Below, in pieces: positions 1 to 19,010 of a stretch of 64,000 bases of DNA; the first letter of the stretch is position 1; the number at the start of each line of letters is the position of its first letter. The position numbers and the translations under genes were made by a program. The notes under the pieces were generated by a model. It had not been told where the DNA came from. It ran no database searches and worked only from the letters and a program-made list of their open reading frames with translations. This stretch comes from Streptomyces sp. NBC_01754 (GTDB lineage: Bacteria > Actinomycetota > Actinomycetes > Streptomycetales > Streptomycetaceae): positions 5,952,001 to 6,016,000 of the forward strand of contig NZ_CP109132.1 of the NCBI RefSeq assembly GCF_035918015.1, in the 5' to 3' direction.

Positions 1-3000
1 TACCTCTACCGCATCCTGTTCCTGCTCTATGCCGAGGCCCAGCCCTCGCTCGGCATCCTGCCCGCCGACGACCCCGAGTACGTGCGCGGCTACGGCCTCC
101 AGCGCCTCGGCGACCTCGTCGTCCGTGACCTGGTGGGCGAGCGGTCCCGGCGCGGATTCCATCTGTACGAGTCCCTGGACCTGCTCTTCCGGCAGGTCCA
201 GAAGGGCCACCGGGAGTTCGGCAGCGAGCCCGAGGACCTTCAGGCCCAGGCCGCCGACCGCGCCGCCACCGAGGCCGAGCGGGAGGCCGCCGAACTCTTC
301 GCCGCCGGGACCATCACCCGCGACGAACACACGGAACGCGTACGCGAGGCCGACCGCACCCGCAAGGCCGCGGCCCGCAGCGCCGACGTCGGCCTGCGTT
401 TCGAGCCGTTGCGCTCCGAACTGTTCGCGAGCGATGCCGTACGCCTCATCTCGACCGACCTGATCGAGAACCCGGCGTACGAGGAGGGCTCGGGGCTGCC
501 CGAGTACCTGGACGTCCGGCTGCGCAACGAGACCCTCCACAAGGTGCTGCACCGGCTGATGCTCACCCGGGGCAAGGGCCGCGAGCGCGGCGGCTTCATC
601 TCCTACGCCCAGCTGGGCATCAACCAGCTCGGCGCGGTCTACGAGGGGTTGATGTCGTACACCGGCTTCATCGCCGACGAGGACCTGTACGAGGTGGCCA
701 AGGGCGGCGACGCGTCCGGCGGCAGCTGGATGATTCCGGCCTCCCGGGTCCAGGACTACCCGGACGAGGTGTTCGTCGAGCGACCCCACGAGGAGACCGG
801 CCGCCCGCTGCGCGTCGTCCACCCCAAGGGCTCGTTCGTCTACCGCCTGGCGGGCCGCGACCGCCAGACCTCGGCCTCGTACTACACCCCGAAGTCCCTC
901 ACCGAGGTGACCGTCGAGCTGGCCCTGAAGCACCGCCTCGACCAGGACGGCACCAAGACGTCCGCCGAGGAGCTCCTGGGCTGGAAGATCTGTGAGCCGG
1001 CACTCGGCTCGGGCGCGTTCCTCAACGAGGCGATCGACCAGGTGGCGGCGGAGTACCTGCGACGCAGGGAAAGGGAGCTGGACCGCCGCATCGACCCCGA
1101 GGCGCGCCCGGTCGAACTCCAGAAGGCCAAGGCGTACATCGCCCTGCACAACGCGTACGGCGTGGACCTGAACGCCACGGCGGTGGAGCTGGCGGAGGTC
1201 TCGCTCTGGCTGAACTCCATGCACCCCGGCATGCGCGCCCCCTGGTTCGGCCTGCATCTGCGGCGCGGCAACTCGCTGATCGGCGCGGGCCGCAAGGTGT
1301 ACGGGGCGGACGCGCTGCCGCACGGCCAGTGGCTGTCGAAGAAGGCGCCGCTCGCACCCACCGATCTTCCCTTCCGCGACGGCGATCTGCCCGACGGCGC
1401 GGTGCACCACTTCCTCCTGCCCGCACTCGGCTGGGGCGCGGTGGCGGGGGAACCCGAGGCGAAGAAGCTCGCGGAGGAGCAGGCGAAGGCGCTCGGCCAG
1501 TGGCGCCGGGGCGTCCAGAAGACCCCCAAGGGCCCCAAGCCGTTCGAGGAGAAGGACGGTGAGGCGGCGGACAAGCGGCAGGCGCGGTACGCCCGTTGGG
1601 CCAAGGCGGCGGCCAAGACCGAGGCGGGTCGGCTCCAGGCGGTGGCCCGGCGGGCCGAGTTCCTGTGGAGCCTGGTCGCCAAGCGCCTGGAGCTGTCGGA
1701 GCGGAAGGTGTCGCGCCGGATCGACGTATGGGGCGCGGAGTGGCTGGAACCGGCCACGGAGGCGGCGGACAAGCAGCGCGTCCTGGACGACCTGACGGCG
1801 GCCGGCACGCCGTACTGGCGGCTGAAGACGGTGATGGACGCGTGGTGCGCGCTGTGGTTCTGGCCGCTCGACCAGGTGGGGCTGCTGGACGGCACGGACG
1901 GGGCGGCGTACGCGTTGGGCGGCGGCGGAGCGCCAGGTGCGGTGCCTGATCTGGAGTCCGCCGCGCCGGCCGGTCCCGCGCCGGGCGATGTCGCCTGGCG
2001 GGCGACCGGCCTCTTCGACGACCCGGACGGCGAGCAGGAGGAGCTGGGCGCGGACGGCGCCGATGCGGCGGGACTGCGGGCGAAGGGGCGCTCACGGAGC
2101 ACCGGTGGTCGAAAGGCCAGGATCAAGCAGGACGACCGGCGGTCCGTCATTGCGCTGAAGAACTTCGCCGACTGGCTGGAGTTCCTGGAACTGGCGCTCG
2201 GAACGCTGGACGCGGACCCTGGTTCCTTCCTGAGCGGCCTGGACGAACTGCCGGTGGACGAGGCGTTGCCGCTGCTGGAGACGTACGAGCGCAGTCTGGA
2301 CGACATGCTGGGCATGGACAGTCCGTTCAAGCTGAAGTCGCGCTTCCCGTGGTTGGCAGCGGTCGAGGACATCGCGGGCACGAACGAGCGAGAGATAAAG
2401 ACGGAGGACGGGCAGGGCTTCTTCCACTGGGAGCTGCACTTCGCGCATGTGTTCCGGGGGGAGCGGGGCGGGTTCGACCTTCAGGTGGGGAATCCACCGT
2501 GGGTGCGGCCCCGGTGGGAGGAGAACCCACTGCTCGCCGAGTACGAACCGTGGTTCATGCTCACGGAGAAGCCGACGAAGGCCGAGCGCACGCGACGACT
2601 CGACGAGCTGATGACGGCGGAGCCGGTGCGCCGCTACCTGCTGCACGAGCTGGCCGTGCACAGCGGCACGGGTGCCATGCTCGGCTCCGGCCTCCTGTAT
2701 CCGTTGCTGCGCGGCACGCAGCCGGACCTCTACCGGGCGTTCATGTGCCGGACGTGGGAGCACATGGCGGGGGAGGGGACGGTGGGATTGGTTCACCCGG
2801 ATTCCCACTTCAGCGGGGACAAGGAAGCGCGCCTGCGGGAGGCCGCGTACACGCGGCTCCGGGTGCACGGCGACTTCGTGAACTCCGGGAACCGCTTTTT
2901 CCCTCCGCCCGTGGGCAGGTCCAGCCACTTCGGCGTGCATGTCTACGCGAGGGAGGGGGAGATCGGGTTCGACCACTTGTCCTGGCTCTTCTCGGTGGAC

Positions 3001-4485: not shown

Positions 4486-4490
4486 GCAAA

Positions 4491-4523
4491 GCGCCCCGCA
4501 TGGAAAGTGACCGTGCGGGGCGC
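4491..4523. terminator. Hairpin terminator between convergent genes
   Basis: Perfect 10-bp inverted repeat (GCGCCCCGCA / TGCGGGGCGC) with a 13-base loop. It begins 5 bases after the methyltransferase stop and lies before the 3' end of the minus-strand DUF397 gene. There is no T-run, which is usual for Streptomyces. It probably serves both directions. Confidence 0.7.
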
Positions 4524-4540
4524 GGAGAGGTGCGGCAGCC

Positions 4541-4789
4541 TCAGCCCTGAGCCGCGTACGAGAGGAAGCTCTGCCACGTCCCGGGGCCCACAGCAAGCTG
4601 CGGGCTCTGGCGCAGCTTGGAGTCCCGCACGTGGACGGTCGTAGGGCAGGCTGCCACCTCGACGCAGTCTCCGTCGCCGCTGCTGCTGTGGGTGGACTTC
4701 CGCCACGAGAGGGCCACCTCGACGCAGTCGTCACCCTGCGAGCCGCTGTAACTGCTCTTGAACCAGGCCAGTTCGGATGTGCTGTTCAT
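4541..4789 (-). CDS. DUF397 domain protein with duplicated motif
   Basis: Small 82-residue protein. DUF397 proteins are abundant in Streptomyces and normally carry one W-KSSYS-G-CVEVA block followed by VRDSK and a C-terminal W..F. Here the block appears twice: around residues 9-26 (WFKSSYSG, DDCVEVA) and 29-47 (WRKSTHSS, GDCVEVA). The VRDSK and W..F features follow once. Its ATG overlaps the stop of the upstream XRE gene (shared ATGA), so the two are translationally coupled. In known cases (the whiJ/abaA type) such pairs act in developmental or antibiotic regulation. The local target is unknown. Confidence 0.85.
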   Translation of the reverse strand: MNSTSELAWFKSSYSGSQGDDCVEVALSWRKSTHSSSGDGDCVEVAACPTTVHVRDSKLRQSPQLAVGPGTWQSFLSYAAQG

Positions 4790-5646
4790 AGCGCTCCTCG
4801 CATTCGCTTCAACAGGCCCAGGGAGTCCTCCGGGGTCAGAGCCTGTGAGCGCATCTTGGCACAGCGCTGATGAAGACGGCTTATCTCTTTCGGGTCAGTG
4901 ATGAGGCGGCCATTCTCCTGACCCTCCGAGTAGCCGTACCAGTGATTGTCGGCCGTCTCGGCCAGTCGCAACGGCCCGTCCAACCCCGCATGCACCGACT
5001 GCCGCAGCGGCATCAGCTGAAACTCGACGTTCCAGTGCCGCTCCACGACCTCCACCAGGTGGTCGAACAACTCCCGCGTCACGTCCTCCCCGCCCGTGTG
5101 CCGCTCAAGCACCGCCTGCTCCACGATGAAGCTGAATGCCGTCGGCGGCTTCCGGCACGTCGCCAGCAGCTCCTGGCGGGCGATCCGCGCCGCGATACGT
5201 TCGTTCAGCTCTTGCTCGTCCGGTAGCGGCGGCACGCTGAACGACACCGCTCGCGCATACGCCTCCGTCTGCAACAGCCCCGGCACCACCCGGCACTCGT
5301 ACGTGTACAGGCTCACCGCCTCGGCCTCCAACCGCGCCCACTGACGGAACCAACTCGCCAGCCCCGGCTGCCGCGAGAGATGCCGCGCCGCGCCCCGTAG
5401 CGTCCCGAACGCGTCCAGGATCTCCTCCGCCCGTTCCACGAAGTCCACTTGCGGGAAGCGGCGGCCCTGCTCGATCTTGGCGACCGTCTGGAGCGAGTAC
5501 CCCACCCGCTCGGCGAACTGCTCCTGCGTCAGACCCGCCCGCTTGCGGAAGGCCTTCAGGACCTCGCCGAACGTCTTGAGGCTGTCCGAGACCTCCGGCT
5601 CCCCGCTGCCCGGCGACCCGCACGCCCCACCCGTACCGTCCGTCAT
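4786..5646 (-). CDS. XRE-family helix-turn-helix regulator (DUF5753)
   Basis: 286 residues. An N-terminal helix-turn-helix is visible around residues 25-80 (LTQEQFAERVGYSLQTVAKI), followed by the DUF5753 region with the typical W/YTYECRVVPGLLQTEAYA segment. This is the common Streptomyces XRE/DUF5753 architecture (WhiJ-like). The start is the ATG at 5646, preceded on the minus strand by GGGAGG. It is coupled by a 4-base overlap to the DUF397 gene and diverges from the anti-sigma-like ATPase gene at 5815, forming the usual three-gene regulatory group. It may regulate itself through the dyad at 5735-5766. Whether it controls the neighbouring defence genes is an inference from position only. Confidence 0.9.
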   Translation of the reverse strand: MTDGTGGACGSPGSGEPEVSDSLKTFGEVLKAFRKRAGLTQEQFAERVGYSLQTVAKIEQGRRFPQVDFVERAEEILDAFGTLRGAARHLSRQPGLASWFRQWARLEAEAVSLYTYECRVVPGLLQTEAYARAVSFSVPPLPDEQELNERIAARIARQELLATCRKPPTAFSFIVEQAVLERHTGGEDVTRELFDHLVEVVERHWNVEFQLMPLRQSVHAGLDGPLRLAETADNHWYGYSEGQENGRLITDPKEISRLHQRCAKMRSQALTPEDSLGLLKRMRGAL

Positions 5647-5734
5647 GCGAGGACACCTCCCGTACGCCTGCTCTGTTCTGCCCCGTCACCCACTTCGAAC
5701 CCGGTCATGGTCACGGATGGTCGCCACCCCTGTC

Positions 5735-5766
5735 CACTCTCCGTACTCACCCTCTGACACAGAGTG
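5735..5766. promoter_or_regulatory. Nested dyad in divergent intergenic region
   Basis: CACTCT at 5735-5740 pairs with AGAGTG at 5761-5766. An inner repeat CTCTG-ACA-CAGAG occupies 5752-5764. It lies between the divergent XRE and ATPase genes, where an autoregulatory operator would be expected. No footprint or homologous site was available to compare. Confidence 0.35.
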
Positions 5767-5814
5767 CTAGTGGCGGATCTGGTGACTGCCCCTGTGAGCT
5801 GCGATTTTGGTCCC

Positions 5815-6258
5815 ATGACGTCAGCCCACGCCCCCCAACCATCCGTCGCCGTACGTGTGTTCGCGCAGCGGTTCAGCTCCACCCCACGCGGTGCGCGCCT
5901 CGCCCGTCACCTCGCCGTGCATCAGCTGGACGCCTGGGGCATCCCGTACGGTTCCGACGCCTCGGACACCGCCGCTCTCCTGGTCGCCGAGCTCGGCGCC
6001 AACGCCGTCGCCCACGGCCGTGTCCCCGGCCGTGACTTCGAGGTGCGGCTCCGCCTCGACGCGTACACGCTGCGGATCGACGTCTCGGACGCGCGCGGCG
6101 AACGCCGTCCCGCCGGACGCGGGGTCGCCGTCCCGCCGCCCTGCGCCGACGGTGGTCGCGGGCTGCTGCTCGTGGAGGTGCTGGCCGACCGGTGGGAGGT
6201 ACGCGACCGGCTGCCCGTCGGCAAGACCGTCCGCGCCGAACTGGACCTGCCCCGCTGA
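5815..6258 (+). CDS. ATP-binding protein, anti-sigma-factor-like (HATPase_c)
   Basis: 147 residues from the ATG at 5815. The frame is open further upstream, but this ATG gives the usual N-terminus of the family. The N box of the GHKL/RsbW-type ATPase is visible as ELGANAVAHG (around residues 63-72), with a later G-rich GRGLLLVE segment. Such single-domain proteins are very numerous in Streptomyces and often sit beside an XRE/DUF5753 plus DUF397 pair, as here. Most have no defined partner. The family fold suggests a serine-kinase-like anti-sigma function. It may be unrelated to the defence genes on either side. Confidence 0.85.
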   Translation: MTSAHAPQPSVAVRVFAQRFSSTPRGARLARHLAVHQLDAWGIPYGSDASDTAALLVAELGANAVAHGRVPGRDFEVRLRLDAYTLRIDVSDARGERRPAGRGVAVPPPCADGGRGLLLVEVLADRWEVRDRLPVGKTVRAELDLPR

Positions 6259-6351
6259 CCGGCCTCGCTGACGCACCCGCCCGCCGTCTATAGGCTTGCC
6301 GCGACACCGAGGTCATCGGTGGCGGACGAGCGAGGGCGGCGACGGGGAGTC

Positions 6352-7644
6352 ATGGCGGGGCTTGAGGACAGTGGCAGCGGGCGCACCACCGGGCGGAACC
6401 GTGCCGTCGGATACCGGCGCTACCAGTTTCCGCCGGGGGAGGACGCCGAACAGCTCCAGCCGGGGCTGTTCCCCACCCTGCACGGTCCCGTCGAGGTCGG
6501 TAACGACGGGCTGCCCACCGGTGTGGAGCTGGAACAGCTCGTCGACGAGGAGAGCGAGGCGCGCGACCCGGGCGAGATCGTCGCGCCCTTCCAGCCCGAG
6601 AACATCAGGATCGAGACCCAGACGACCACCGTCGACCTGCTGCTGTCCCGGCTCAGGGAGGGGATGATCGATCTCGCGCCCGACTTCCAGCGCCGGGCCG
6701 GTATCTGGACCGACGTGCAGCAGAGCCGGCTCATCGAGTCGCTGCTCCTGCGCATTCCCATCTCGTCGTTCCACATGGCGCAGGACGAGGACGACAACTG
6801 GGCCGTGGTCGACGGGATCCAGCGGCTCACGGCCATCGCCCGGTTCATGGCCCCGGAGACCGTGGGAATGCCACCGCTCCGGCTGCGGGGGCTCGACTAC
6901 CTCCAGGACTTCCACGGGCACGGCTACCAGGACCTCACCGGGCGGCTGAAGATCAGGCTGCGCGAGACGCAGCTCGTGGTGCACATCATTCAGCAAGGCA
7001 CCCCGGAGGCGGTGAAGTTCAACGTCTTCGCGCGGATCAACACGGGCGGGATGCCACTCAAGCCGCAGGAGATCCGGCACGCCCTGATCGACGGCCCGGT
7101 ACGCGGCTATCTCGCCGACCTCGCCGAGGACCGGGCCTTCGGCGAGGCCACCGGGAACAGCGTGTCCAACGAGCGCATGGCCGATCGGGAGATGGTGCTG
7201 CGCTTCCTGGCGTTCCGGCTGACCGACCCGGCCGAGCACGTGCAACGCGACTTCGACCAGTTCCTCATCGACGCCATGCACCAGGTGAACCGGCTCGGTG
7301 TGCGGGAGCGCGGCGCGGTGGCGGTCGAGTTCCGGAAGGCGATGCGTTGCGCGACGGACGTCTTCGGTGAACACGCCTTCCGGAAATGGCGCGGCGAAAA
7401 GGGCAAGTCGCCCATCAACAAAGCGCTCTTCGAGACGGTCGCCGTCAATCTGGCCACCCTGGACGATCACGGACGTAAAGCGTTGGTAACGTCACGTGAC
7501 AGGGTGCTCGACGGCTTCTTCGAGCTGATGAAGGACTGGGACTTCGACCGCGCGATCTCCGTCGCCACCGGCGACACGAAGAAGGTGCGTACGAGGTTCT
7601 CCGCGATGGCGGAGCTCTTCCGGGGGGTGGTGAACGGTGATTGA
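6352..7644 (+). CDS. DUF262 domain protein (GmrSD/ParB-nuclease-like fold)
   Basis: 430 residues from the ATG at 6352, which has GGGGAG just upstream. An in-frame GTG at 6319 is an alternative, giving 441 residues. The DUF262 signature is clear: LLSRLREGMIDLAPDFQRR, then the R.IESLLLRIPI segment and VVDGIQRLTAI. The family consensus is DGQQR, so the first Q is replaced by I. DUF262 is the NTP-dependent half of GmrSD and SspE enzymes, which cut modified phage DNA, but the partner HNH domain DUF1524 is not visible here. The gene overlaps the next one by 8 bases. I infer a sensor or effector subunit of a defence complex. Confidence 0.85.
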   Translation: MAGLEDSGSGRTTGRNRAVGYRRYQFPPGEDAEQLQPGLFPTLHGPVEVGNDGLPTGVELEQLVDEESEARDPGEIVAPFQPENIRIETQTTTVDLLLSRLREGMIDLAPDFQRRAGIWTDVQQSRLIESLLLRIPISSFHMAQDEDDNWAVVDGIQRLTAIARFMAPETVGMPPLRLRGLDYLQDFHGHGYQDLTGRLKIRLRETQLVVHIIQQGTPEAVKFNVFARINTGGMPLKPQEIRHALIDGPVRGYLADLAEDRAFGEATGNSVSNERMADREMVLRFLAFRLTDPAEHVQRDFDQFLIDAMHQVNRLGVRERGAVAVEFRKAMRCATDVFGEHAFRKWRGEKGKSPINKALFETVAVNLATLDDHGRKALVTSRDRVLDGFFELMKDWDFDRAISVATGDTKKVRTRFSAMAELFRGVVNGD

Positions 7645-8821
7645 CCAGCTGACGCTGACGAACTTCAAGGCGTTCCAGCACGTGGACCTGCGCCTCGGGC
7701 CCCTCACCCTGCTGACCGGGCTCAACTCCTCCGGCAAGAGCAGTGTGCTCCAGGCGCTGGGGCTGCTCCAGCAGTCCTACCAGGCTGGGGAGTTCTACGA
7801 GGTCCCCGATCTGTTCACCCTGCCGGGTGACCGGGGCGGGCCCCCGACCGGCCACGGCTTCCTCCTCAACGGCGAATTCGTCTCGCTCGGCACCGGGCGC
7901 GACGTCCTGCACGAGGACTTCGCCGGGGAGGAACCGGAGATCACCCTCGCGGTGAGCGAAGGGCCGGCCCGCTACGCCTGGACCGTCGCCTACGAACCGG
8001 AACAGAACCTGCTGCCTCTGCTCCGCGTCGACAACCCACAGAACAGCGAGGGCGCGTTGGCACGGGGGGACATCGCCTCCGTCATCCCCGGCTGCTTCAC
8101 CGCCGGGTTCCAGTACCTGCACGCCGACCGCATCTCACCCGCCGAGTTCTATCCGCGCGACCACCACGCGGCCATCGGCCGTGGCTTCCTCGGCGTCCGG
8201 GGCGAGCACACCGTCAACTTCCTGCGCCACCACCACCAGGTCGGGTTCGAGGTCCCCGAAGGGCCCCTGCGTCACCCGAAGGCCGCTTCCGCCCGGCTGC
8301 TCGACCAGGCCGCCGCCTGGATGGGGGAGCTGTGCCCCGGAGTGGACATCCAGGCCGCCGCCATCGACGGCACGGACTCGGTGCGTCTCTCGTACGGTTT
8401 CGACGGCCCTCGCGGCACGCGCCGACGCCCCACGAACGTCGGCTTCGGGCTCACGTACGCCCTGCCGATCGTCGTGGCCTGTCTGACGGCGCAGCCGGGT
8501 TCGCTGGTCCTGCTGGAGAACCCGGAGGCGCATCTGCACCCGCGCGGCCAGTCCCGGATCGCGGGCCTCCTCGCGGCGGCTGCGGCGCAAGGGGCGCAGC
8601 TGATCGTCGAGACGCACAGCGACCACGTGCTCAACGGGGTGCGGCTCGCCGTCAAGCGTGGAGTGCTGGCGCCGGACCGTGCCGTTGTCCACTACTTCCG
8701 GGGCGGCGTGACGGGCAGCGAGGTGGCCAGCCCCCGCATCGACCGCGACGGCATGCTCGACCAGTGGCCGGAGGGGTTCTTCGACGAGGTGGAGAACCTG
8801 CTCGACGAACTGCTGACCTGA
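7637..8821 (+). CDS. AAA family ATPase with DUF3696
   Basis: 394 residues. The GTG start at 7637 lies inside the end of the DUF262 gene, so the two are coupled. Walker A is GLNSSGKSS near residues 31-39. A C-terminal ABC/SMC-type Walker B region follows as LLENPEAHLHP, with the H-loop segment VETHSDHVLNG. The C-terminus RIDRDGMLDQWPEGFFDE matches the DUF3696 tail. These OLD-like ATPases commonly accompany nuclease or DUF262 partners in defence loci. I see no fused TOPRIM domain, so any nuclease activity must come from a partner. A role as the energy or sensor subunit for the DUF262 protein is inferred from coupling. Confidence 0.88.
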   Translation: MIDQLTLTNFKAFQHVDLRLGPLTLLTGLNSSGKSSVLQALGLLQQSYQAGEFYEVPDLFTLPGDRGGPPTGHGFLLNGEFVSLGTGRDVLHEDFAGEEPEITLAVSEGPARYAWTVAYEPEQNLLPLLRVDNPQNSEGALARGDIASVIPGCFTAGFQYLHADRISPAEFYPRDHHAAIGRGFLGVRGEHTVNFLRHHHQVGFEVPEGPLRHPKAASARLLDQAAAWMGELCPGVDIQAAAIDGTDSVRLSYGFDGPRGTRRRPTNVGFGLTYALPIVVACLTAQPGSLVLLENPEAHLHPRGQSRIAGLLAAAAAQGAQLIVETHSDHVLNGVRLAVKRGVLAPDRAVVHYFRGGVTGSEVASPRIDRDGMLDQWPEGFFDEVENLLDELLT

Positions 8822-8874
8822 GGGACCGGCCGGGGGCCGGACGAGCGTGCGTGAGACATCACCGAGGGGGAAGT

Positions 8875-9846
8875 GTGCCGCTGCTGTTCCTGAACGAGAT
8901 CTCCTGCGGAACGACGTGCGACCACGCACGGGCCGAACGGGCGATGACGGAGCTGGCGGACGCCGTGCTCGCCGTGCTGCGGGCGGACCGGCCGGGCACC
9001 GTGCTGGTGAGCAAGGAACCGATCACCGGGCTCCAGATCGCGGACGGGCACCCGATCGGCAAGTGGCACGGCAACCCGAGGAACCGTGACGCCTGGCGGC
9101 GGCTCCTCCAGATGCAGAGCAAGTGGCCGCACCGCACCTCGTATCCGGAGGGCGAGGGCTTCTACGACGTCGAGTACCGGCATCAGGGCAGGTTGGCCGA
9201 AGGGCTCGGCGCGGCTCACCTGATGGACGGGCTCGGGCTGTCCCTCGCCGTCGACACGTGCTGGGGCGACGCCCGGGTGACGCTGGAGCGCGAGCAGCTG
9301 GTCGACGACGCCGATGCCACGGACACCACAGTCGGCGGCGCCACGGCGGGCTCGCACATCGGCGAGGTGGAGATCCGGCACGCGTCCAGCGGGACACACA
9401 TCGACGGGCACCTGCGCTGGATCGCCGACCGGGTCGAGCTGGCCAGACGCGGAGGGATCGACTCCGTGGCCCACGGCGCGGAGCTGTGGGAACGGAGGGC
9501 AGCCCTCTTCCCTCGGCTGGAGTTCCTGCCGCGTGTGGAATCGCAGCTCAGGAACCTGACCCCGGGCTGGGTGCGCCCGGCGGGCCGACGCCTGGCCGAA
9601 CTCGACCTGGCCGTCACCTCATGGGACCCGGACACCGACCCCGAGGGGCCGCAGTGGCACTCCCATGTGACGGGCGAGGGCGAGACCCGGAGCCGTGAGT
9701 TCTGCGTGTTCACCGATCTCGACGGCCGGCAGCGGACCTTCGGCAAGCACGGCCGCTTCACCCCCGGGCACGGCCGGGTGCACTTCCGGCTCGTACCCGA
9801 GAGCAGGACACTGCGCGTCGCTCACGTCGGCCTGAAACTCCTCTGA
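8875..9846 (+). CDS. Uncharacterised protein of the defence operon
   Basis: 323 residues. The GTG at 8875 has a strong GAGGGGGAA just upstream; the frame remains open further back, but that part overlaps the ATPase gene. I do not recognise the family. Visible features are an N-terminal FLNEISCGTTCD segment, a central GKWHGNPRNRD segment, and a C-terminal FTDLDGR..TFGKHGRFTPGHGRVHFR stretch rich in His and Arg. There is no signal peptide or membrane helix. It lies 53 bases after the DUF3696 ATPase and 126 bases before the large helicase, on the same strand. I infer it belongs to the same system; the conserved-looking His residues would suit a nuclease or toxin, which is speculation. Confidence 0.7.
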   Translation: MPLLFLNEISCGTTCDHARAERAMTELADAVLAVLRADRPGTVLVSKEPITGLQIADGHPIGKWHGNPRNRDAWRRLLQMQSKWPHRTSYPEGEGFYDVEYRHQGRLAEGLGAAHLMDGLGLSLAVDTCWGDARVTLEREQLVDDADATDTTVGGATAGSHIGEVEIRHASSGTHIDGHLRWIADRVELARRGGIDSVAHGAELWERRAALFPRLEFLPRVESQLRNLTPGWVRPAGRRLAELDLAVTSWDPDTDPEGPQWHSHVTGEGETRSREFCVFTDLDGRQRTFGKHGRFTPGHGRVHFRLVPESRTLRVAHVGLKLL

Positions 9847-9972
9847 GCCGGTCGCCGCAGACAGATGGGGCCTCCCGCCCGACCCGCACGGGAGAACCGG
9901 CGATTACGGTAGGGCCCCGGAGCCGCGGGTGGCGGCACCGGACACCGAGTACGGAACGAAGGAGACGCACGC

Positions 9973-12900
9973 GTGCGACCGACCCTCGCCGCCGAGCAGG
10001 TACGCGACAGCCTGAGCCAGTACCTGTCGACGACGTACGCACTGGCGGACGAAGGCACCCGCAGCGCCCTGGAACAGTTCCTCGGCCACACCGACGACGG
10101 CATCTTCCGCGGCCCGTACCTGCGCATCCGCACCCCCTTCAGCCCGGCCACGGGCGACGACTGGCAGCAGCACCTCACCTGGTGGCCGCGGGGCTTCCAC
10201 CCGCACCGCCACCAGGAGAGGGCCTGGGAACGCCTCTCCACCCTGCACCGCCCGGCCAGGCCCACGCTGGTCACCACCGGCACGGGATCGGGCAAGACCG
10301 AGTCGTTCCTCGTGCCGCTCCTGGACCACTGCCGCCGGGAGCGCGAAGCGGGCCGGGAAGGCGTCAAGGCCGTCCTGCTCTACCCGATGAACGCGCTCGC
10401 CACCGACCAGGCCCACCGCATCGACGACCACCTCGGCAACCCCCGGGACGCCCGGCTCAGGGACGCGGGCGTACAAGCCGCGCTGTACATCGGCGACAAG
10501 GCGTCCACGGAGTTCAAACAGGCCAATCCGCGCATCGTGGCCGACCGCGACGAGATCCGGCGCACCCGTCCCGACATCCTGATCACCAACTACAAGATGC
10601 TGGACCTGATGCTCCAGCGGCCTGAGGACCAGCGACTCTGGCAGGAGCCGGGCGGCAGCGCGCTCGCCTACGTGGTGCTGGACGAGTTCCACACCTACGA
10701 CGGCGCACAGGGCACCGACGTGGCCATGCTGCTGCGCCGGCTCGGCGCCGTCACAGGTCTGGCCGAACCGGGCCGGCCGCTCGGTCCGGTCTGCCCCGTC
10801 GCCACCTCGGCCACTCTGGGTGAGGGCATGTCAGGGGCTGCGGGCGGGTCGATGCTGGACGTGGCGGAGCAGGTGTTCGGTGTGCCCTTCCCGCCGGACG
10901 CCGTCGTGGGGGAGGAGCGGCGCAGCGCCCAGGACTTCGCGGGGAACAGCGACTTCGCACTGCCCTTCCCGGCCCCCGAGGAGGTGGCGGCCATCGGCGA
11001 TCCCGCCACGGATCCCACGGCTCTCGACGAACTCGTCGCGCTCTTCACCGGGAAGAGCGGCCTGGACGCGGCGCAGCTCGGCCGGCAACTGCGCCGCCAC
11101 CGGCTGACCGCGGCCGTCCTGGAGATCCTCGACGGCCGCCCGCGCACCATGACCGAGATCATGGACGTCCTGCCGCGCTACGCCTACCACTGGGGTGTGG
11201 CGGTCCAGCAGAAGCCGGCCGTGGCGGCCAGGGCCCTTGCCCGGTACATCGCGCTGCTCTCCACGGCCCGCGACCCCGAACACCCCAACCGCCCGCTCCT
11301 GTCGATCGAAGTGCACCACTGGGTGCGCTCCGTCTCCCGGGTCCTGCGCGGTATCAGTGCGGCGCGGGCGGAGTTCCGGTGGGACGACGAGCGGGTCGCC
11401 ACGGGTGGCCGTCCGACCCGTGGTCGGCCGGACGGCACCCGTTCCTCCGGCCGCTCCGACGCGTCCGCCCTCTCCGACGGCGACGCCACCCCCGCCATCG
11501 ACAGCGCGCCCCCGCCCGCCCAGGTGTTCCTGCCCGCGGTCTTCTGCCGGGAGTGCGGCCGGTCCGGCTGGGCGGCGCTCTCCCCGGAGGCGGATCCGGC
11601 GGAACTCGACATGAACGCCACGAAGATCCGCCGGGCATCCGTCGGCCGCGACAAGAGCCGCGTCCGCAACATGATCGCCGCGACCCCGCAGCAGGCGTAC
11701 GACGCGGCGTTCGTCACCGAGAGGCCGCGCGGCGGCCCGACCGTGCTGGTGCTCGACGGACTGACCGGACGAGTCCGCCCGCTGTCGCGCGAGAAGGACT
11801 TCGACCCGCCCCGGGACGGCGAGGGCCCGCACCTGGCCAAGCCGCTGCACGACGCGGCGTTCGTCTGGGCCGACCTCGGCGACGACCGGGCCGCGCGTGG
11901 TGACCAGTGCCCCGCCTGCCGTACGTTCAACGCCATCCGCTACCTCGGTACCGGCCTCGCCGCGCTGGCCGCCGCGTCCATCACCCAGCTGTTCACCGGT
12001 GGTGAGCTCGACAAGAACCTCCACGAGGACAAGACGCTCCTCTTCAACGACTCCGTCCAGGACGCCGCCCACCGCGCCGGATACGTCGCCAACCGCTCGT
12101 ACACCTTCTCGCTGCGCTCACTGCTCGCCAGCCGCATCGACGAGGACGAGCCGATCGCCCTGAACGACCTGGCCGCCGACCTCATCGCGGACGTCGTGGA
12201 CAGCAAGGCCGTCCAGGCCGCGGTGATCCCGCCCGACCTGCACGTCGTGCGCGGTGTCGACACCCTGCTGGCCGGGCGAAGCCAGGGCTCCCGCCCCACC
12301 TGGCAACTCATCGCCCAGCGCCTCGCCTTCGCGGCGGTCCTGGAGTTCGGCCTGAAGTCCCGGCAGGGCCGCACCCTGGAACTGACGCGTACCGTCGCCG
12401 CGGACGTCCCGCTCCAGGACCCGGACGCGGTCGCCGAGATCGTGCGCGAACTCCTGCACACCACACCCGGAGAGATCGCACTGCCCGACGGCTCCCCGCC
12501 GGGACCGGAACGCTGGACCGCCTATGTGAGGGGCATCCTCGAACGGCTGCGCACCCGGGGCGCCATCCGGCACACCTGGCTCGACGGCTGGCTGAACGAG
12601 GCGGGCGTGCGGCGCTGGCTCGTCTGGGGCGGGCGGAAGACGGGTATGCCGGCGTTCCCGCCCGGTGTGTCCGCGCCCGCGTTCCTGCTGGGCAGCCCCA
12701 AGCAGGGCAGCGACGACTTCGACGTCGTCACCGGCCGCCTCGGCTGGTACCAGGACTGGACCCGGCGCAGCCTCGGCCTGCGGCCCGACTCGGCCAACGC
12801 CTTCCTCGTGCGCCTGCTGCCCGCGCTCGCCGACGCGGGCGTGCTGTCCGCCCGTACCGCCAAGGACGGGGTGACCCGCGTCTACGGCCTCCAGCCCGGC

Positions 12901-15900
12901 CACGTCACCGTCCGCAAGCTCGCCGACGACCAGGTGGCCGACGCCTCCGCGCACTGCCCGGTGTGCTCCTGGGAACAGACCGTCCACCCCGACCTGGCCG
13001 AGCAGTGGCACGGGCAGCCGTGCCCCCGCTACCGCTGCGGCGGACTGCTGCGTACCGGCCAGGACGTGCAGAGCGGCGTACGGCACCGGGACTTCACCGA
13101 CGACTTCTACCGCCGGATGTACCGCGAGGCAGGGGTCTTCACGATCAACACGGCGGAGCACACCGGCACCCTCACCCGACCCAGACGCGAAGCGGTCGAG
13201 AAGGCGTTCCGCGAGGGAGTCCAGGCCCACTACGCCAACCCGCAGGTCCTGTCGTGCACCCCCACGCTCGAACTCGGCATCGACATCGGTGACCTGTCGG
13301 CCGTGGTCCTCGCCTCGCTGCCCAAGGGACCGGCGAACTACGTACAGCGGGTGGGCCGGGCCGGCCGAGCCACCGGCAACGCCTATCTGCTGACCATGGT
13401 CGACCGGGGCCCCCGGGACCGCTACTACCTGGAAGACCCCCGGCAGATGATCGCCGGGGACATCCAGCCACCCGGCTGCTTCCTCTCCGCGAGCGAGATC
13501 CTGCGCCGCCAGTACCTCGCACACCTCCTCGACCTGGTCGGCGCCGGGCGCCTGCGCACGCCGGACGGCGACACGCTCAGCCCGATGCCCCGCCTGGCCA
13601 GCGACCTGTTCGGTCCCTCCGCGTGGCTGCCGGAGTTCCAGCAGGCCGCACTCGCCGACGGCACCCGACTCGTCGAGGCGTTCCTGGGCCTGTTCCCGCC
13701 GTACGACGCGCAGCGGGGCACCGGCGTCAGTCCACGGGCGGCCGAGGAACTGCGTACGTACGCGACCGGAGACCTCGGCGCCGCCCTGGGCGGGGCCCGC
13801 ACCCGGTGGGAGGACCGGCGCGGCGAGACGCAGCACCGGATCGAGTCGATCGACAGGGCGTTGAAGGCCCTGGTGGCCGGCGACCCGGACCACGAACGGC
13901 AGGGCAAGGAGCTGCGGGCCGAACGACGAGGCGTGTCCCGGCACGCCGGAGAGATCAGCCGCAGCACGGCACACGGCGCGCTCGTCGACCTCGGCCTGCT
14001 GCCCAACTACAGCCTCGTCGACTCGGCGACCGAACTCGAAGCCACCCTCGTCTGGCGTGAGGACGGCAAGGACGGACAGACCGAGCACCACAGCAAGGTC
14101 CTCAGGTACGAGCGATCGGCGCGCCTGGCCCTGACCGACTTCGCACCCGGCAACCACTACTACGTACAGGGCTACAAGCACCGCGTCACCGGGCTCGACA
14201 TCGGCAGTCCCAACCGGCCGTCGTGGCTGTGGTGGCGTGTCTGCCCCGACTGCGGCCACGTCCGTACGCAGCAGGCGGAGAGGGACTCCTCCGCCTGCCC
14301 GCGATGCCAGTCCCCGGCCATCGGCGACGTCGGCTGCCTGCACAAGGTCCTGGTACCGCACCGCGTGACGGCCCGCGACCAGCGCGACGACATCCGCGTA
14401 CGCGACGACACGGACGAGCGGGAACGGCGCCACTACACCGTCGTCCCCGCCGTGGACATCGCGCAGGAGCACATCGAGGCGGGGTGGAAGCACCGGAAGG
14501 CCACCTTCGGATGGGAGTTCACCCGGCAGGCCGTGATCCGGCACATCAACGTCGGCTCCACCCGTGTCGACACAGGGGCCGAGGACGCCTTCTCGGGACG
14601 CCAGGTCAGGCTCAACCCCTTCTGGGTCTGCGACACCTGCGGATTCGCCGACCCCGACGGTGGGCCCGCCGCCGCGCACACAGGACAGCAGGACGCCTTC
14701 GGCCCGCCCAGGGCCACCAAGTACCACCGCCCGTGGTGTCCCCGGCTGCGTGACGGTCTCGGCGAGACGAGAGCCGCACAGCAGGGTGTGAGACTGCTGC
14801 TCGCGCACGAGCTGCGCAGTGAGGCGCTGCGCATTCTCATCCCCGCGGTCACCGCCTACACGCAGGAGCGTCTGGCCTCGTTCAAGGCGCTGCTCCTCGC
14901 GGGCATCGCCCAGAGCTACGGCGGCGACCCCGACCACCTGGCCGTGGTCACCGACTCGATGCCGGAGCCCGGCAGCGACGTCCGCAGGCACTTCCTCGTG
15001 CTGTACGACTCCCTGCCCGGCGGCACCGGCTACCTCCACCGGCTCGCGGGACCCGACGGGCTGCACGACGTGCTGACCCGGGCCCGTCAGGTGATCGAGC
15101 GGTGCCCGTGCGTCGGGGAGGAGCGCCCCGCCTGCCACCGCTGCCTGCTGCGGTACGTCGACGGCGGCGAGTACGAGCTGGTCTCGCGCGAGCACGCCCT
15201 CGACATGCTCGGTGAACTCCTGGGCCGTACCGGCGACGCCTGGAGCATCGAGGAAGCCGGCACGACGCGGGACATCAGCCTCGTCCAGCAGGTGGAGAGC
15301 GAGCTGGAGGCACTGTTCCGCCGGGGACTCCTCGCCTGGGCCGAGGGCTTCGACGGCGTGAGCGTGCGCACCGCGCAGACGCCCGACGGCGAGCGCGACA
15401 CCACGCTGCGGTTCACGGCTCCGGACGGCAAGGTCAGCGGCTGGCGTATGGAGACGCAGACCGACCTCGGGTTCACCGTGCCCGACGTCGTCTTCCGCAG
15501 CCTCGACGACGACCGCAAGCGCGTAGCCGTCTACCTGGACGGCTACCGCTACCACGCGAGTCCCGGCCACAACCGCATCGCGTCGGACGCCGGAAAACGG
15601 ACACGGCTGCGTACCGGGCACGGCTGGCAGGTCTTCCAGCTGACCTGGGACGACGTACGCGCCTGGACCGGGGACGCGAAGCCTCCGGCCGATCCCGTAT
15701 GGGTGCCGTACCAGCACACGGCGCAGAAGACCGCCTCCGACATCCACCGGCGTCTGCACGGGGACGATCCGCGCGATCTGCACAACTTCGTGTGGACGAA
15801 CCCCGTCAACACATTGATCGGCTATCTGACCACCCCGGATCACGAGATGTGGCGGAGGCGTGTCCAGAGCGCCCTGGCAGGCTTCGCCGCCGTCTCCGCG

Positions 15901-16749
15901 ACCAGCAGGGCCCTGGCGGACGGGCCCGGGATCGGGCACCGTATCGCGGAGGCGCTGGCGGGCAGGCGGCTCGCGGGCGGCAAGGGAGCCGTCCAGGTCA
16001 TGGCCACCCAGGACGGCAGCGGATGCCCCCTGACCGTCGCCCTCGACCTGCGCAGGGGCCAGGCGGGCGCGGTGTGGAGCGCCCTGACCGTGCTCGACGA
16101 CAGCCCGGAGGCGCTGGGCCGTGACGAGAACGCCCACCACCGGCGATGGCAGGCCTGGCTGTACTGGACCAACCTGCTCCAGTTCCTCAACGAAGGCGAG
16201 GGAGACGGCGTCCAGCTCGCGGCCAGCCAACTGCCGGGCTTCGACCCGGTGGAGCTGGCCGTGACGGGCGGCCCGGGCTGGCTGGAGTCCCGGCGGCAGC
16301 GGTCCGGGTCCGAGCGGCCGGCCGAGGAGGCTGCTTCGCCCGTCGCCCCTGCGAGGCCGGCGACTCCGGCCGCGGGAGCCGTGCGCGATCCGGCATGGGA
16401 CGAAGTCGTCGAGTACTTGGTGGACGAACCCGGGCTCGCCGAGCTGGTCGAGGCGCTGGTGCGTTCCGCCGCGCCCGCTCCCGAGGCCGGATTCGAGCTC
16501 GGTGAGGCGGCCTGGCCCGCCGAACTGGCCTGGCCCGTCCACCGGGTCGGAGTCGTCCTCGCTGCTGGGGAGGAGGACGAGGCGGCGCTTGCCGAGGCAC
16601 GGGACCGCGACCGCGCGTACGCGGCGGCGGGGTGGACCGTACGGACCGCGGTGGAGTGGGACGCCCGGGGACTCGTGGCTGCCCTGACCCGGTCCACGGA
16701 AAAAGACGGCCGACCGGCCGCGAACGACGACGAGGAGCAGGACCGATGA
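9973..16749 (+). CDS. Giant DEAD/DEAH helicase with DUF1998 and C-terminal nuclease-like domain
   Basis: 2258 residues. The GTG start at 9973 has AAGGAG 8 bases upstream. The superfamily 2 motor shows Walker A GTGSGKTE (about residue 105), a DEFH box (about 237), SAT (about 279), and QRVGRAGR (about 1125). Roughly 800 residues separate the two RecA halves and hold Cys clusters that look zinc-binding. Further on come a CPDCG..CPRC cluster, the LPGGTGYL segment and the CPC..ERPACHRCLL cysteine block typical of DUF1998. Near residues 1835-1900 a PDVVF..VYLDGYRYH..D..KR..L segment resembles Vsr/DUF559-type restriction-endonuclease folds. The closest known types are Druantia DruE and DISARM helicase/DUF1998 proteins. 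It overlaps the next gene by 4 bases. Confidence 0.88.
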   Translation: MRPTLAAEQVRDSLSQYLSTTYALADEGTRSALEQFLGHTDDGIFRGPYLRIRTPFSPATGDDWQQHLTWWPRGFHPHRHQERAWERLSTLHRPARPTLVTTGTGSGKTESFLVPLLDHCRREREAGREGVKAVLLYPMNALATDQAHRIDDHLGNPRDARLRDAGVQAALYIGDKASTEFKQANPRIVADRDEIRRTRPDILITNYKMLDLMLQRPEDQRLWQEPGGSALAYVVLDEFHTYDGAQGTDVAMLLRRLGAVTGLAEPGRPLGPVCPVATSATLGEGMSGAAGGSMLDVAEQVFGVPFPPDAVVGEERRSAQDFAGNSDFALPFPAPEEVAAIGDPATDPTALDELVALFTGKSGLDAAQLGRQLRRHRLTAAVLEILDGRPRTMTEIMDVLPRYAYHWGVAVQQKPAVAARALARYIALLSTARDPEHPNRPLLSIEVHHWVRSVSRVLRGISAARAEFRWDDERVATGGRPTRGRPDGTRSSGRSDASALSDGDATPAIDSAPPPAQVFLPAVFCRECGRSGWAALSPEADPAELDMNATKIRRASVGRDKSRVRNMIAATPQQAYDAAFVTERPRGGPTVLVLDGLTGRVRPLSREKDFDPPRDGEGPHLAKPLHDAAFVWADLGDDRAARGDQCPACRTFNAIRYLGTGLAALAAASITQLFTGGELDKNLHEDKTLLFNDSVQDAAHRAGYVANRSYTFSLRSLLASRIDEDEPIALNDLAADLIADVVDSKAVQAAVIPPDLHVVRGVDTLLAGRSQGSRPTWQLIAQRLAFAAVLEFGLKSRQGRTLELTRTVAADVPLQDPDAVAEIVRELLHTTPGEIALPDGSPPGPERWTAYVRGILERLRTRGAIRHTWLDGWLNEAGVRRWLVWGGRKTGMPAFPPGVSAPAFLLGSPKQGSDDFDVVTGRLGWYQDWTRRSLGLRPDSANAFLVRLLPALADAGVLSARTAKDGVTRVYGLQPGHVTVRKLADDQVADASAHCPVCSWEQTVHPDLAEQWHGQPCPRYRCGGLLRTGQDVQSGVRHRDFTDDFYRRMYREAGVFTINTAEHTGTLTRPRREAVEKAFREGVQAHYANPQVLSCTPTLELGIDIGDLSAVVLASLPKGPANYVQRVGRAGRATGNAYLLTMVDRGPRDRYYLEDPRQMIAGDIQPPGCFLSASEILRRQYLAHLLDLVGAGRLRTPDGDTLSPMPRLASDLFGPSAWLPEFQQAALADGTRLVEAFLGLFPPYDAQRGTGVSPRAAEELRTYATGDLGAALGGARTRWEDRRGETQHRIESIDRALKALVAGDPDHERQGKELRAERRGVSRHAGEISRSTAHGALVDLGLLPNYSLVDSATELEATLVWREDGKDGQTEHHSKVLRYERSARLALTDFAPGNHYYVQGYKHRVTGLDIGSPNRPSWLWWRVCPDCGHVRTQQAERDSSACPRCQSPAIGDVGCLHKVLVPHRVTARDQRDDIRVRDDTDERERRHYTVVPAVDIAQEHIEAGWKHRKATFGWEFTRQAVIRHINVGSTRVDTGAEDAFSGRQVRLNPFWVCDTCGFADPDGGPAAAHTGQQDAFGPPRATKYHRPWCPRLRDGLGETRAAQQGVRLLLAHELRSEALRILIPAVTAYTQERLASFKALLLAGIAQSYGGDPDHLAVVTDSMPEPGSDVRRHFLVLYDSLPGGTGYLHRLAGPDGLHDVLTRARQVIERCPCVGEERPACHRCLLRYVDGGEYELVSREHALDMLGELLGRTGDAWSIEEAGTTRDISLVQQVESELEALFRRGLLAWAEGFDGVSVRTAQTPDGERDTTLRFTAPDGKVSGWRMETQTDLGFTVPDVVFRSLDDDRKRVAVYLDGYRYHASPGHNRIASDAGKRTRLRTGHGWQVFQLTWDDVRAWTGDAKPPADPVWVPYQHTAQKTASDIHRRLHGDDPRDLHNFVWTNPVNTLIGYLTTPDHEMWRRRVQSALAGFAAVSATSRALADGPGIGHRIAEALAGRRLAGGKGAVQVMATQDGSGCPLTVALDLRRGQAGAVWSALTVLDDSPEALGRDENAHHRRWQAWLYWTNLLQFLNEGEGDGVQLAASQLPGFDPVELAVTGGPGWLESRRQRSGSERPAEEAASPVAPARPATPAAGAVRDPAWDEVVEYLVDEPGLAELVEALVRSAAPAPEAGFELGEAAWPAELAWPVHRVGVVLAAGEEDEAALAEARDRDRAYAAAGWTVRTAVEWDARGLVAALTRSTEKDGRPAANDDEEQDR

Positions 16750-19010
16750 CCAGCACCGGTGGGCCAAGTGTGGGTGCGACCCTCCGCCTGCTCGACAAGG
16801 CGGACAAGGAGATCGTCAAGCTGGACCGGGCGATCGTCGGAGCGGTCTACAAGTTTCAGCACGAGTTCCGTAAGAACCCCGAGGCGCCGGGCTTTGATCT
16901 CAAGCCGCTGAAGGGCCACGAGCGGCTGTGGTCGGCGCGCGTCAACCGCGAGTACCGGGCTCTGCTGGTGCGGCTCGGCGGCAACGACTGGCTGCTGGTC
17001 TCGGTCAAACACCGCGGACACGTCCACCGCAACCTCGACCGGTTCGCGTACGGCATCAACCAGATCACGGGTGCGATCGAGTACGTGGACCTCCACGTGG
17101 TGGAGGAGGACGTCCTCGGCGAGGGGGGATCCGGGGAGCACGCGGAGAGGCCGGCCCAGGAAGCCGCCGTCCCCGAAGCGCCGCTGTTCGCCGCCTACAC
17201 CGCGCGGCAACTGGCCGACCTGGGTGTGGCCGAGCCGCTGATCCCGATCGCTCTCAAACTCACTACGGACGACGAGCTGCTCGGACTCGCCGAGTACGCT
17301 CCGCGGCACACCGGCGAGGTGCTGCTGCGGCTGCGTGACGGAGTCCCGTATCAGCAGGTCATGGACGAGGTCACCGCGCCGGTAGCGGTCGCGGGATCGC
17401 CCGGGAGCACCGACGGTGAGAACTGGCGGGCTGCGGCGGACCGCTCGCAGGCCGTGGTGATCACCGACGACGAGTCCCTGCGCGGCATCATCGAGGAGGG
17501 CGACTTCGGGCGGTGGAAGGTGTTCCTCCACCCCACCCAGGAACGGCTGGTGGCACGTACGTACTCCGGGCCCGCCCGGGTGGGCGGTGGACCCGGAACA
17601 GGGAAGACGATCGTCGCCCTGCATCGGGTGAAGCATCTCGTGGAACGACTGCCCCCCGGCCACAACAAGCCGGTCCTCTTCACCACCTTCAACAAGAACC
17701 TCGCCGCAGACCTCCGCTCCCGCCTTCTTTCGCTCGGCGGGCCGCACCTGCTCGCCCGTGTCGACATCCTGCACGTCGACCAGTTGGCGACGCGCGTGGT
17801 CAGCGAGGCCGACCCGGGGAACGCCAAGCGCCGGATCGACGACACACAGGCTCTGCGCGAGTGGCGCCAACTGCTGGTGGAAGCCGGGGAGAGCCGCTGG
17901 GACGCCGAGTTCCTCTGCGACGAGTGGAACCAGGTGATCCTCGGCCAGGCCGTGTCGTCACGCGCCGACTACTTCCGTGCCCGACGGGCCGGGCGGGGCC
18001 GCAGTGTGTCCCGCGCCGACCGTGCCGAGATCTGGCAGCTGGCCGAGCGCTTCACCCAGCGGCTGGACGTCAACGGTTGGGAGACGCACCGCCAGGTGGC
18101 GGAACGCGCCGCCCAGTTGGAGACGGCGCGCCAGCACAAGATCGAGGAGCGCCGTCGCCAGGAGGAAGAGTCGGGTGGCCCCGGCAACATCCACGCGCAG
18201 TCCGGGACCGGCGCCTGGATGCGGTACCGCTACCGGCACATCGTCGTGGACGAGGCCCAGGACCTCGGTGCCGCGCATTGGAAGATGCTGCGGTCCATGG
18301 CACCCCGGGAGGCCGACGACATCTTCCTCGTCGGTGACACACACCAGAGGATCTACGACAACCAGGTCACCCTCGGCAGCCTGGGCGTCAACATCCGGGG
18401 GCGCTCGTCGAAACTGACGCTCAGCTATCGCACCACCCGCGAGATCCTGAGCGCCGCGATCCGCATCCTGGAAGGAACCGACTTCGACGACCTCGACGGC
18501 GGCTCCGACGACCTGGCCGGATACCGCTCGGTGCTGCACGGCGGACGCCCCCGCCTGCGGAGTGCGGACAGCTGGGACAAGGAACTCGACCTCGTCGTGG
18601 AGCAGGTCCAGGCATGGCACGACGTCCCGCGCGAGTCCGTCGCGGTCTGTGTGCCGACGAACGACATGGCTGACGAGGTGGTGACGCGGCTCGCCCGCCG
18701 CGGCATCATGGCCACGAAGATCACCGGCGACGGGGCGCGGGGCGTGGAGGGGGTGCACGTCGGCACCATGTACCGGTTCAAGGGGCTCGAGTACCGCTGC
18801 ATGATCATTGCCGGCGTCTCGGAGGGCCTGGTGCCCCGCGCGGCTGTGGACGCCTGGGAACGGACCGACCGCCTTCGCCACAGGCGAGAACTGCAACGAG
18901 CGCGCTCGCTGCTGTTCGTCGCGGCCACCAGGGCTCGGGACGCACTGACCATTTCCTGGAACGGTGAGCCCAGCCGGTTCCTGCGCCCGCTGGGAGCAGG
19001 GGATCGCTGA
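16746..19010 (+). CDS. UvrD/Rep superfamily 1 helicase with RelE-like N-terminal domain
   Basis: 754 residues. The ATG at 16746 overlaps the stop of the large helicase (ATGA). Residues about 8-110 read like a RelE/ParE toxin fold: DKADKEIVKLDRAIVGAV, a LKPLKGHERLWSARV strand, YRALLVRL and a C-terminal SVKHRGHVHRNL. The helicase motor follows, with Walker A GGPGTGKT (about residue 280), DEAQD (about 500), GDTHQRIYDN, a FKGLEYR segment and the C-terminal AATRARDAL motif. Superfamily 1 motors unwind DNA 3' to 5'. Coupling implies it is made with the giant helicase. Whether the RelE-like part cuts RNA or serves only as a docking fold is unknown. Confidence 0.88.
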   Translation: MTSTGGPSVGATLRLLDKADKEIVKLDRAIVGAVYKFQHEFRKNPEAPGFDLKPLKGHERLWSARVNREYRALLVRLGGNDWLLVSVKHRGHVHRNLDRFAYGINQITGAIEYVDLHVVEEDVLGEGGSGEHAERPAQEAAVPEAPLFAAYTARQLADLGVAEPLIPIALKLTTDDELLGLAEYAPRHTGEVLLRLRDGVPYQQVMDEVTAPVAVAGSPGSTDGENWRAAADRSQAVVITDDESLRGIIEEGDFGRWKVFLHPTQERLVARTYSGPARVGGGPGTGKTIVALHRVKHLVERLPPGHNKPVLFTTFNKNLAADLRSRLLSLGGPHLLARVDILHVDQLATRVVSEADPGNAKRRIDDTQALREWRQLLVEAGESRWDAEFLCDEWNQVILGQAVSSRADYFRARRAGRGRSVSRADRAEIWQLAERFTQRLDVNGWETHRQVAERAAQLETARQHKIEERRRQEEESGGPGNIHAQSGTGAWMRYRYRHIVVDEAQDLGAAHWKMLRSMAPREADDIFLVGDTHQRIYDNQVTLGSLGVNIRGRSSKLTLSYRTTREILSAAIRILEGTDFDDLDGGSDDLAGYRSVLHGGRPRLRSADSWDKELDLVVEQVQAWHDVPRESVAVCVPTNDMADEVVTRLARRGIMATKITGDGARGVEGVHVGTMYRFKGLEYRCMIIAGVSEGLVPRAAVDAWERTDRLRHRRELQRARSLLFVAATRARDALTISWNGEPSRFLRPLGAGDR

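Follow-up and report, generated by a model that had tools for sequence, protein, structure and literature searches.

How are the parts of several anti-phage systems combined when they stand side by side on one strand of a bacterial genome: as one new machine, as a passive gathering of cassettes, or as one known system lodged within another? The question is raised by positions 1-19010 of a 64,000-nucleotide stretch of Streptomyces sp. NBC_01754 (contig NZ_CP109132.1), the whole of which is here called the window. A preliminary description, prepared from the sequence alone, listed six genes on one strand, all of which are indeed present on the plus strand, and took them for a composite defence system without a match to any named one. 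It is nearly certain that the locus is an ARMADA Type II operon opened at the junction between ArmB and ArmC by a set of regulators and a complete Menshen system. Since these two named systems cover every gene that had been named, the proposal of a new composite is refuted by the standard which that description had set for itself, a match of the set to named systems, while its view of the locus as an anti-phage composite with DISARM- and Druantia-like parts holds.

ARMADA Type II opened between ArmB and ArmC

ARMADA Type II is described as four genes in strict order: ArmA (BrxHII-like), ArmB (PglX-like), ArmC (YprA-like, with a Vsr-like nuclease end) and ArmD (PMC12458937, Bell et al., bioRxiv 2025). 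Its ArmD is GajB-like with a RelE N-terminus, and its ArmC also has a BrxA-like helical insert and zinc-binding modules (PMC12458937). The same A-B-C-D order is found here on one strand. First comes an ArmA candidate left of the window (L005, positions 14013-16997), with matches to SNF2 (7e-15), DrmD (5e-77) and BrxHII (4e-46). ArmB, a PglX-like adenine DNA methyltransferase, enters the window with its 3′ part (1-4485, plus strand; Pfam Eco57I 7e-13); the reading frame opens 1,002 bases before the window edge and encodes a full protein of 1,828 aa that carries GSGAF and NPPW, the SAM and NPPW motifs of an ArmB, and matches the PADLOC models REase_MTase_IIG (3e-223) and DrmMI (7e-45).

ArmC (9973-16749, plus strand) is a giant helicase of the YprA/DruE type (PADLOC DruE3 9e-92), in which DEAD, Helicase_C and MZB/DUF1998 all fall within one gene in Pfam, just as the helicase and DUF1998 parts had been placed in one chain. 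The nuclease-like end that had been proposed for it is also borne out: a region at about residues 1774-1905 (15292-15687, plus strand) has a conserved PD...LDG...H pattern, with conservation of 90% or more at the PD and LDG...H residues among 118 sequences, and PF18741 is pre-assigned in the relatives P0168, P0178 and P0184. By these patterns the chain ends in a putative Vsr-like nuclease of the PD-(D/E)xK type, as in ARMADA II. ArmD (16746-19010, plus strand; 754 aa) shares the four bases ATGA with ArmC, the overlap noted before. It is a UvrD-family helicase (Pfam UvrD-helicase 2e-19) whose RelE-like start likewise finds support (RelE domain, residues 9-95; 16770-17030, plus strand); it matches a NERD+UvrD model of PADLOC as well as GajB (4e-26), and its residues after 129 are barely covered by VIA-align structure rows.

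All four Arm proteins can be aligned along most of their length to four uninterrupted ARMADA loci, on two Streptomyces plasmids, one Tsukamurella plasmid, where ArmC is annotated as two genes, and one E. coli plasmid. Identities to the ARMADA of one Streptomyces plasmid and to the E. coli form are 51% and 29-32% for ArmB, 49% and 29% for ArmC, and 52% and 32% for ArmD. The E. coli form is also chromosomal, beside fim genes, a placement with which a legend on tRNA-Leu islands agrees (PMC12458937), and at megablast level its ArmC gene occurs in 518 of 5,426 E. coli genomes. A comparison of ArmC with viral contigs gave four pattern matches and no relative.

Adjacency of ArmB and ArmC is usual in ARMADA II and is not given as defining in the accessible text of PMC12458937. 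Here, 5,487 bases part the ArmB stop (4485) from the ArmC start (9973), and the locus is therefore filed as a split ARMADA variant. It shares with ARMADA II the SNF2/BrxHII-like ArmA, the PglX-like ArmB, the YprA-like ArmC with DUF1998 and a Vsr-like end, and the RelE-UvrD ArmD; it differs in the 5.5 kb between ArmB and ArmC, which hold a regulator set and Menshen, and in a Ser/Thr kinase 5′ of ArmA.

A composite of the Druantia or DISARM type, as first proposed, would accommodate the DruE3 and DrmMI matches, and the DruE model is in fact the best PADLOC match of ArmC, a likeness to Druantia III as that system is presented in PMC13192584 and PMC13316683. Such a composite is nonetheless highly improbable, as all four Arm genes match ARMADA II loci. 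Druantia III was rejected because the DruE-like gene is flanked by NsnC and a UvrD helicase, which belong to other families, and no DruH is among the PADLOC matches listed for 12 proteins of the locus. The nuclease is of another type as well, since a PLD domain is absent from ArmC (Pfam, E 0.001) and a PD-(D/E)xK pattern stands in place of two PLDs. DISARM class 1 was rejected on the ground that MZB/DUF1998 lies inside ArmC and forms no separate DrmB protein; neither DrmB nor DrmC (a PLD nuclease) is among the PADLOC matches listed. Gabija was rejected too, as no GajA adjoins and the UvrD gene is ArmD.

A complete Menshen system within the operon

A search with PADLOC models, as the preliminary description had advised, identified its DUF262, DUF3696 and unknown genes as NsnA, NsnB and NsnC, names which we take to denote the Menshen system, reportedly introduced by Millman et al. 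in 2022. The three stand in tandem on the plus strand, and each protein matches its PADLOC model nearly full-length. NsnA (6352-7644; PADLOC 1.1e-128) is a GmrSD_N/DUF262 protein with the motif DGIQR (Pfam GmrSD_N 3e-20); its longest frame opens at 6319, and its start at 6352, like those of NsnC (8875) and ArmD (16746), was picked by comparison with relatives. By the noted 8 bases it overlaps NsnB (7637-8821; PADLOC 1.5e-115), an AAA_21/DUF3696 ATPase with the Walker A motif GLNSSGKS. The "OLD-like" label given to this ATPase fits its AAA_21, AAA_15 and DUF3696 matches and does not extend to a TOPRIM family, for which Pfam gave no match at E 0.001. Menshen is described with DUF262 and OLD-like parts (PMC10952713).

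NsnC (8875-9846, plus strand; 323 aa; PADLOC 7.5e-97) matches 141 proteins at E 0.001 or less, itself included. The copy studied here differs from the known system in being lodged within another defence operon and in the predicted end of NsnC: residues 210-321 of the modelled 321-aa piece (9508-9843, plus strand) are predicted to adopt a RelE/YoeB/ParE-type fold, by structure match only and at a weak Foldseek E of 0.06. Residues 184-201 are barely covered by VIA-align rows, and the NsnC profile found nothing credible among PDB sequences. The conserved positions of that piece include E266, R270, H290 and R299. A 2025 paper on Menshen domain polymorphism (gkaf357) may already report such an end.

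How far does Menshen depend on its host operon? A search of the genome_contigs collection with NsnC gave one locus; among 41 nearest-relative genomes only that of the window itself carries the gene, which is present in 28 of 392 Streptomyces genomes (E 1e-10). NsnC and ArmC share one stretch in 17 of these 28 (the window, ten loci like it and six further ones). In two (L057, L058) NsnC lies beside ArmB with no ArmC in the stretch, in seven (L050, L051, L054, L060, L063, L064, L067) the fetched 16.7-20 kb hold no ARMADA gene, and the remaining two (L068, L069) have fragments only. Menshen without ARMADA in reach is also found on one plasmid and probably on a second. Menshen therefore does not need ARMADA. 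The nested order of the window recurs in S. roseoverticillatus, and the succession ArmB, regulators, NsnABC, ArmC is seen in other Streptomyces, so that the conservation as a block for which the preliminary description had asked is borne out. No description of Menshen inside ARMADA was found in the open-access literature searched.

The ArmB|ArmC junction in other genomes

The first 300 aa of ArmC, searched against 392 Streptomyces genomes at E 1e-40, gave 73 listed places in 67 genomes. Seventy were fetched; the other three were the window, one place covered by L059 and a second piece of the same gene, which makes 72 places. At 27 of these ArmB and ArmC are unsplit, with gaps of 0-130 bp; at 35 they are split by 1,914-16,952 bp (median 5,491); and at 10 the ArmB end is out of reach. 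Where loci are related, their counts are not independent of one another. NsnC occupies 16 of the 35 split slots and none of the 27 unsplit stretches. With 19 of 35 split slots free of NsnC, Menshen was rejected as an obligatory part of ARMADA. ArmB is present twice in genome G147: the L057 copy precedes regulators and Menshen in a stretch that lacks ArmC, and the L127 copy stands at a split junction with other cargo.

A class-wide search with the ArmC start (E 1e-30) matched 70 places in 58 of 394 genomes. Thirty-eight were fetched, four were already covered, two lay at contig starts, and 26 weaker matches were set aside, many of them probably fragments or other helicases of the YprA type. In 30 of the 31 loci from other genera the junction is unsplit, with gaps of -51 to 188 bp. 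The single exception, L171, is split by 5.9 kb containing DUF397, an XRE match (29%) and HATPase. Seven further Streptomyces loci in the class set comprise four split, one unsplit and two unseen junctions.

The other junctions of the operon behave differently. Of 100 loci, 83 allowed ArmA|ArmB to be measured, and it is closed in every one of them, with gaps of -60 to 73 (30 of the 35 split loci, 25 of the 27 unsplit and 28 of the 38 in the class set; 17 were not measurable). ArmC|ArmD, measured in 16 loci, has gaps of -6 to 124 in 14; the value of 912 for both E. coli loci reflects an ArmC end that fails to align. The ArmA|ArmB figures bear on a serious rival reading, which we consider only somewhat short of an even chance: ArmB|ArmC may merely tolerate insertions, a passive hotspot at which cassettes pile up with no functional link. 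Closure of ArmA|ArmB in every measured case argues against it, as does the intact state of all four Arm frames around the insert in the window.

Regulators and cargo of the slot

Between the methylase and the DUF262 gene the preliminary description had omitted three genes: a DUF397 (BldB-like) protein (4541-4789, minus strand; Pfam DUF397 2.6e-27), an XRE/DUF5753 (WhiJ-like) regulator (4786-5646, minus strand; Pfam DUF5753 3e-43, HTH_31 1e-15) and a HATPase_c_2 protein (5764-6258, plus strand; Pfam HATPase_c_2 2e-12), from which every gene through ArmD runs on the same strand in the window. The set recurs in the slot: DUF397 is found in 33, XRE in 32 and HATPase in 29 of the 35 split slots, and two split loci (L142, L148) lack any regulator match. 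That nearly all split slots, including the single split outside Streptomyces, hold a similar set argues against passive accumulation. BldB-type genes are common, with a median of 19 per actinobacterial genome (PMC10294661), and yet chance would hardly account for their presence in 33 of 35 slots.

The HATPase presumably occupies the place of an AbaA-type partner. WhiJ/BldB/AbaA loci have the same plan, a DUF397 protein adjoining an XRE regulator with a third neighbour gene (PMC10294661); they differ in that the window's set stands before defence genes. In S. venezuelae, WhiJ9 is described as switching on its neighbour iosA via direct repeats between the genes (PMC10294661). No direct repeats were found between XRE and HATPase (5600-5800), where one weak palindrome lies, and an operator of the WhiJ9 type is therefore not supported.

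What the regulators accompany varies widely, as a passive hotspot would lead one to expect. A codon score was used to call genes at 28 loci. ArmB is in reach in 21 of these, and in the other seven the genes may lie outside the slot. Twenty representatives were scanned against Pfam, 10 of these also against PADLOC. Cargo of slots with ArmB in reach includes HEC-01A/B (3.8e-163 and 8.7e-72), EACC1 with a caspase-SF1 helicase, a pair described as a two-gene system (PMC7159879), a Mokosh-like helicase with PLD, Fic with a VbhA/Phd antitoxin, a RAMA-protein relative, a transposase, and a relative of Beta-protein/PD-Lambda-2_C. Twelve of the 28 loci hold the Beta-protein relative; in each it lies on the opposite strand, and it frequently, though not in every case, adjoins ArmC. 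The class-wide set adds a type ISP methylase and an AbiEi-type antitoxin, and several slot proteins gave no match. Clade-C slots are often small, and five near 1.9 kb have room for little besides regulators. Between XRE and HATPase, the slot of L202 has two genes, of 764 and 166 aa, that gave no Pfam match (7859-10667); by eye, the 764-aa protein resembles the secreted polymorphic-toxin type. Menshen with the regulator set also turns up without ARMADA in reach (L051, L054), a further point for the passive hotspot.

History of the split

A quickly built ArmC tree with 109 rows requires four changes of the split state when unseen rows are left out. With unseen rows taken as "not unsplit", the unsplit label also needs four, against a mean of 35.9 for shuffled labels, and three of the four are forced by well-supported branches; an earlier tree of 71 rows gave two changes against a shuffled mean of 23.1. 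Long branches make the exact count on the ArmC tree unsure, and it is best given as about four. L171 is placed among unsplit relatives. We infer that repeated gain of the split is likelier than its loss with the exact 4-base ArmB/ArmC overlap restored.

The cargo has a history of its own. On a 27-row NsnABC tree ten clade-A slot copies form one clade (100/100), L053 clusters with copies lacking ARMADA in reach, and the clade-B copies make two lineages, from which it follows that entry or replacement of Menshen took place more than once. Clade-A slot copies thus stand in two places, slot and free copies being mixed, a pattern that again favours a passive hotspot. Distances of NsnABC and ArmC agree (r 0.93 for 11 loci of the window's clade, 0.91 for 16 loci; 0 of 5,000 permutations as high), which fits stable linkage and equally the plain descent of the whole locus.

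This matched divergence, and the position of NsnABC directly 5′ of ArmC in 10 of 11 clade-A rows of the ArmC tree, are what one would expect if the Menshen proteins had become subunits of this ARMADA clade, so that neither half works alone. Such a fused system appears unlikely: the clade-A locus L109 has the regulators without Menshen, related Menshen copies occur with no ARMADA in reach (L050, L051, L054), and clades B and C carry other cargo or none.

Expression and proposed mechanism

A -10-like TACGGT (9905-9910, plus strand) lies 68 bases 5′ of ArmC in the window and is a candidate promoter of ArmC-ArmD. The pattern TANNNT, a motif and range picked after the sequences had been viewed, occurs at -80 to -30 before ArmC in 25 of 35 split loci (mean of 300 rounds of shuffling 4.9, highest 10), leaving 10 of the 35 without it in range, and in 0 of 27 unsplit loci (shuffled mean 2.5), where that stretch is mostly ArmB coding sequence. 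From this difference between split and unsplit loci we infer a probable promoter dedicated to ArmC-ArmD where the split has occurred. Several split loci, among them many clade-B loci, have a gene on the opposite strand before ArmC, so that slot and ArmC do not form a single transcript; in those of clade B this speaks against a regulator-driven transcript that reaches ArmD.

We consider it probable, on the whole, that the nested locus works as a direct ARMADA restriction system joined by a probably abortive Menshen layer, with ArmC-ArmD transcribed separately. This reading is compatible with a passive hotspot, which denies only the link between the layers. In E. coli, ARMADA II protection is reported as direct and non-abortive, and against phage HK022 all four genes were required and the cells survived (PMC12458937). 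By analogy, ArmA and ArmB of the window would modify and survey DNA, and ArmC and ArmD would translocate on and cut phage DNA, the cell surviving. NsnA would act as the sensor of the second layer, NsnB would relay its signal through ATP hydrolysis, and NsnC may stop translation via its RelE-type domain, an abortive back-up for cases in which the first layer fails. The split would make ArmC-ArmD a transcription unit of its own, the attacking half being expressed apart from the modifying half and perhaps later.

In restriction-modification, separate expression of the attack is familiar from controller proteins. A bolder and more doubtful proposal, which we offer tentatively, is that ArmB|ArmC is a dedicated and repeatedly evolved cargo bay. 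A captured switch of the WhiJ/BldB/AbaA type would sever the modifying from the attacking half, with attack expressed separately, and an interchangeable abortive back-up (the RelE-type RNase of Menshen, HEC-01, the caspase-helicase pair or Fic) would be freed when a phage disables ARMADA, much as PrrC guards a type I enzyme. PrrC, the nearest parallel in mode of action, is described as kept silent by the restriction enzyme to which it is linked, until an anti-restriction factor of the phage activates it (PMC2610378). The comparison, one of working principle only, is that both would be an ATPase-linked RNase back-up at a restriction locus (PMC2610378); they differ in that the cargo at ArmB|ArmC varies and a regulator set accompanies it.

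Surroundings and significance

The locus lies in a larger defence island: some 5.4-12 kb to the left of the window, the Wadjet type II genes JetB, JetC and JetD (L005, 6014-12644) stand just before the kinase and ArmA. The Ser/Thr kinase (L005, 12779-13933; PD-T4-6/mad6-like) directly precedes ArmA. It is found within 1.5 kb upstream of ArmA in all 49 Streptomyces loci in which the ArmA start and at least 900 bases before it are visible, and has a match in 14 of 31 stretches outside Streptomyces. The word "kinase" is absent from the main text of PMC12458937, and the protein is a possible fifth component of ARMADA II. Elsewhere in the window, a sulfatase is followed by an FGE-type sulfatase-modifying enzyme (24505-27254), and two large NRPS genes (4,833 and 2,534 aa), the second with NAD_binding_4 near its end, lie at 37986-60073.

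The common picture of defence systems is one of separate units clustered in islands. What is new here is the arrangement: Menshen at one exact junction of ARMADA, and a recurrent slot there for regulators and, often, defence-like cargo. One multi-gene system thus has a fixed internal place for others, apparently opened several times at the same junction, and offers a concrete example on which ideas of layered or guarding defences can be tested. A split ARMADA could escape detectors based on gene adjacency, and a simple search rule for further systems follows, which is to inspect the sequence between ArmB and ArmC.
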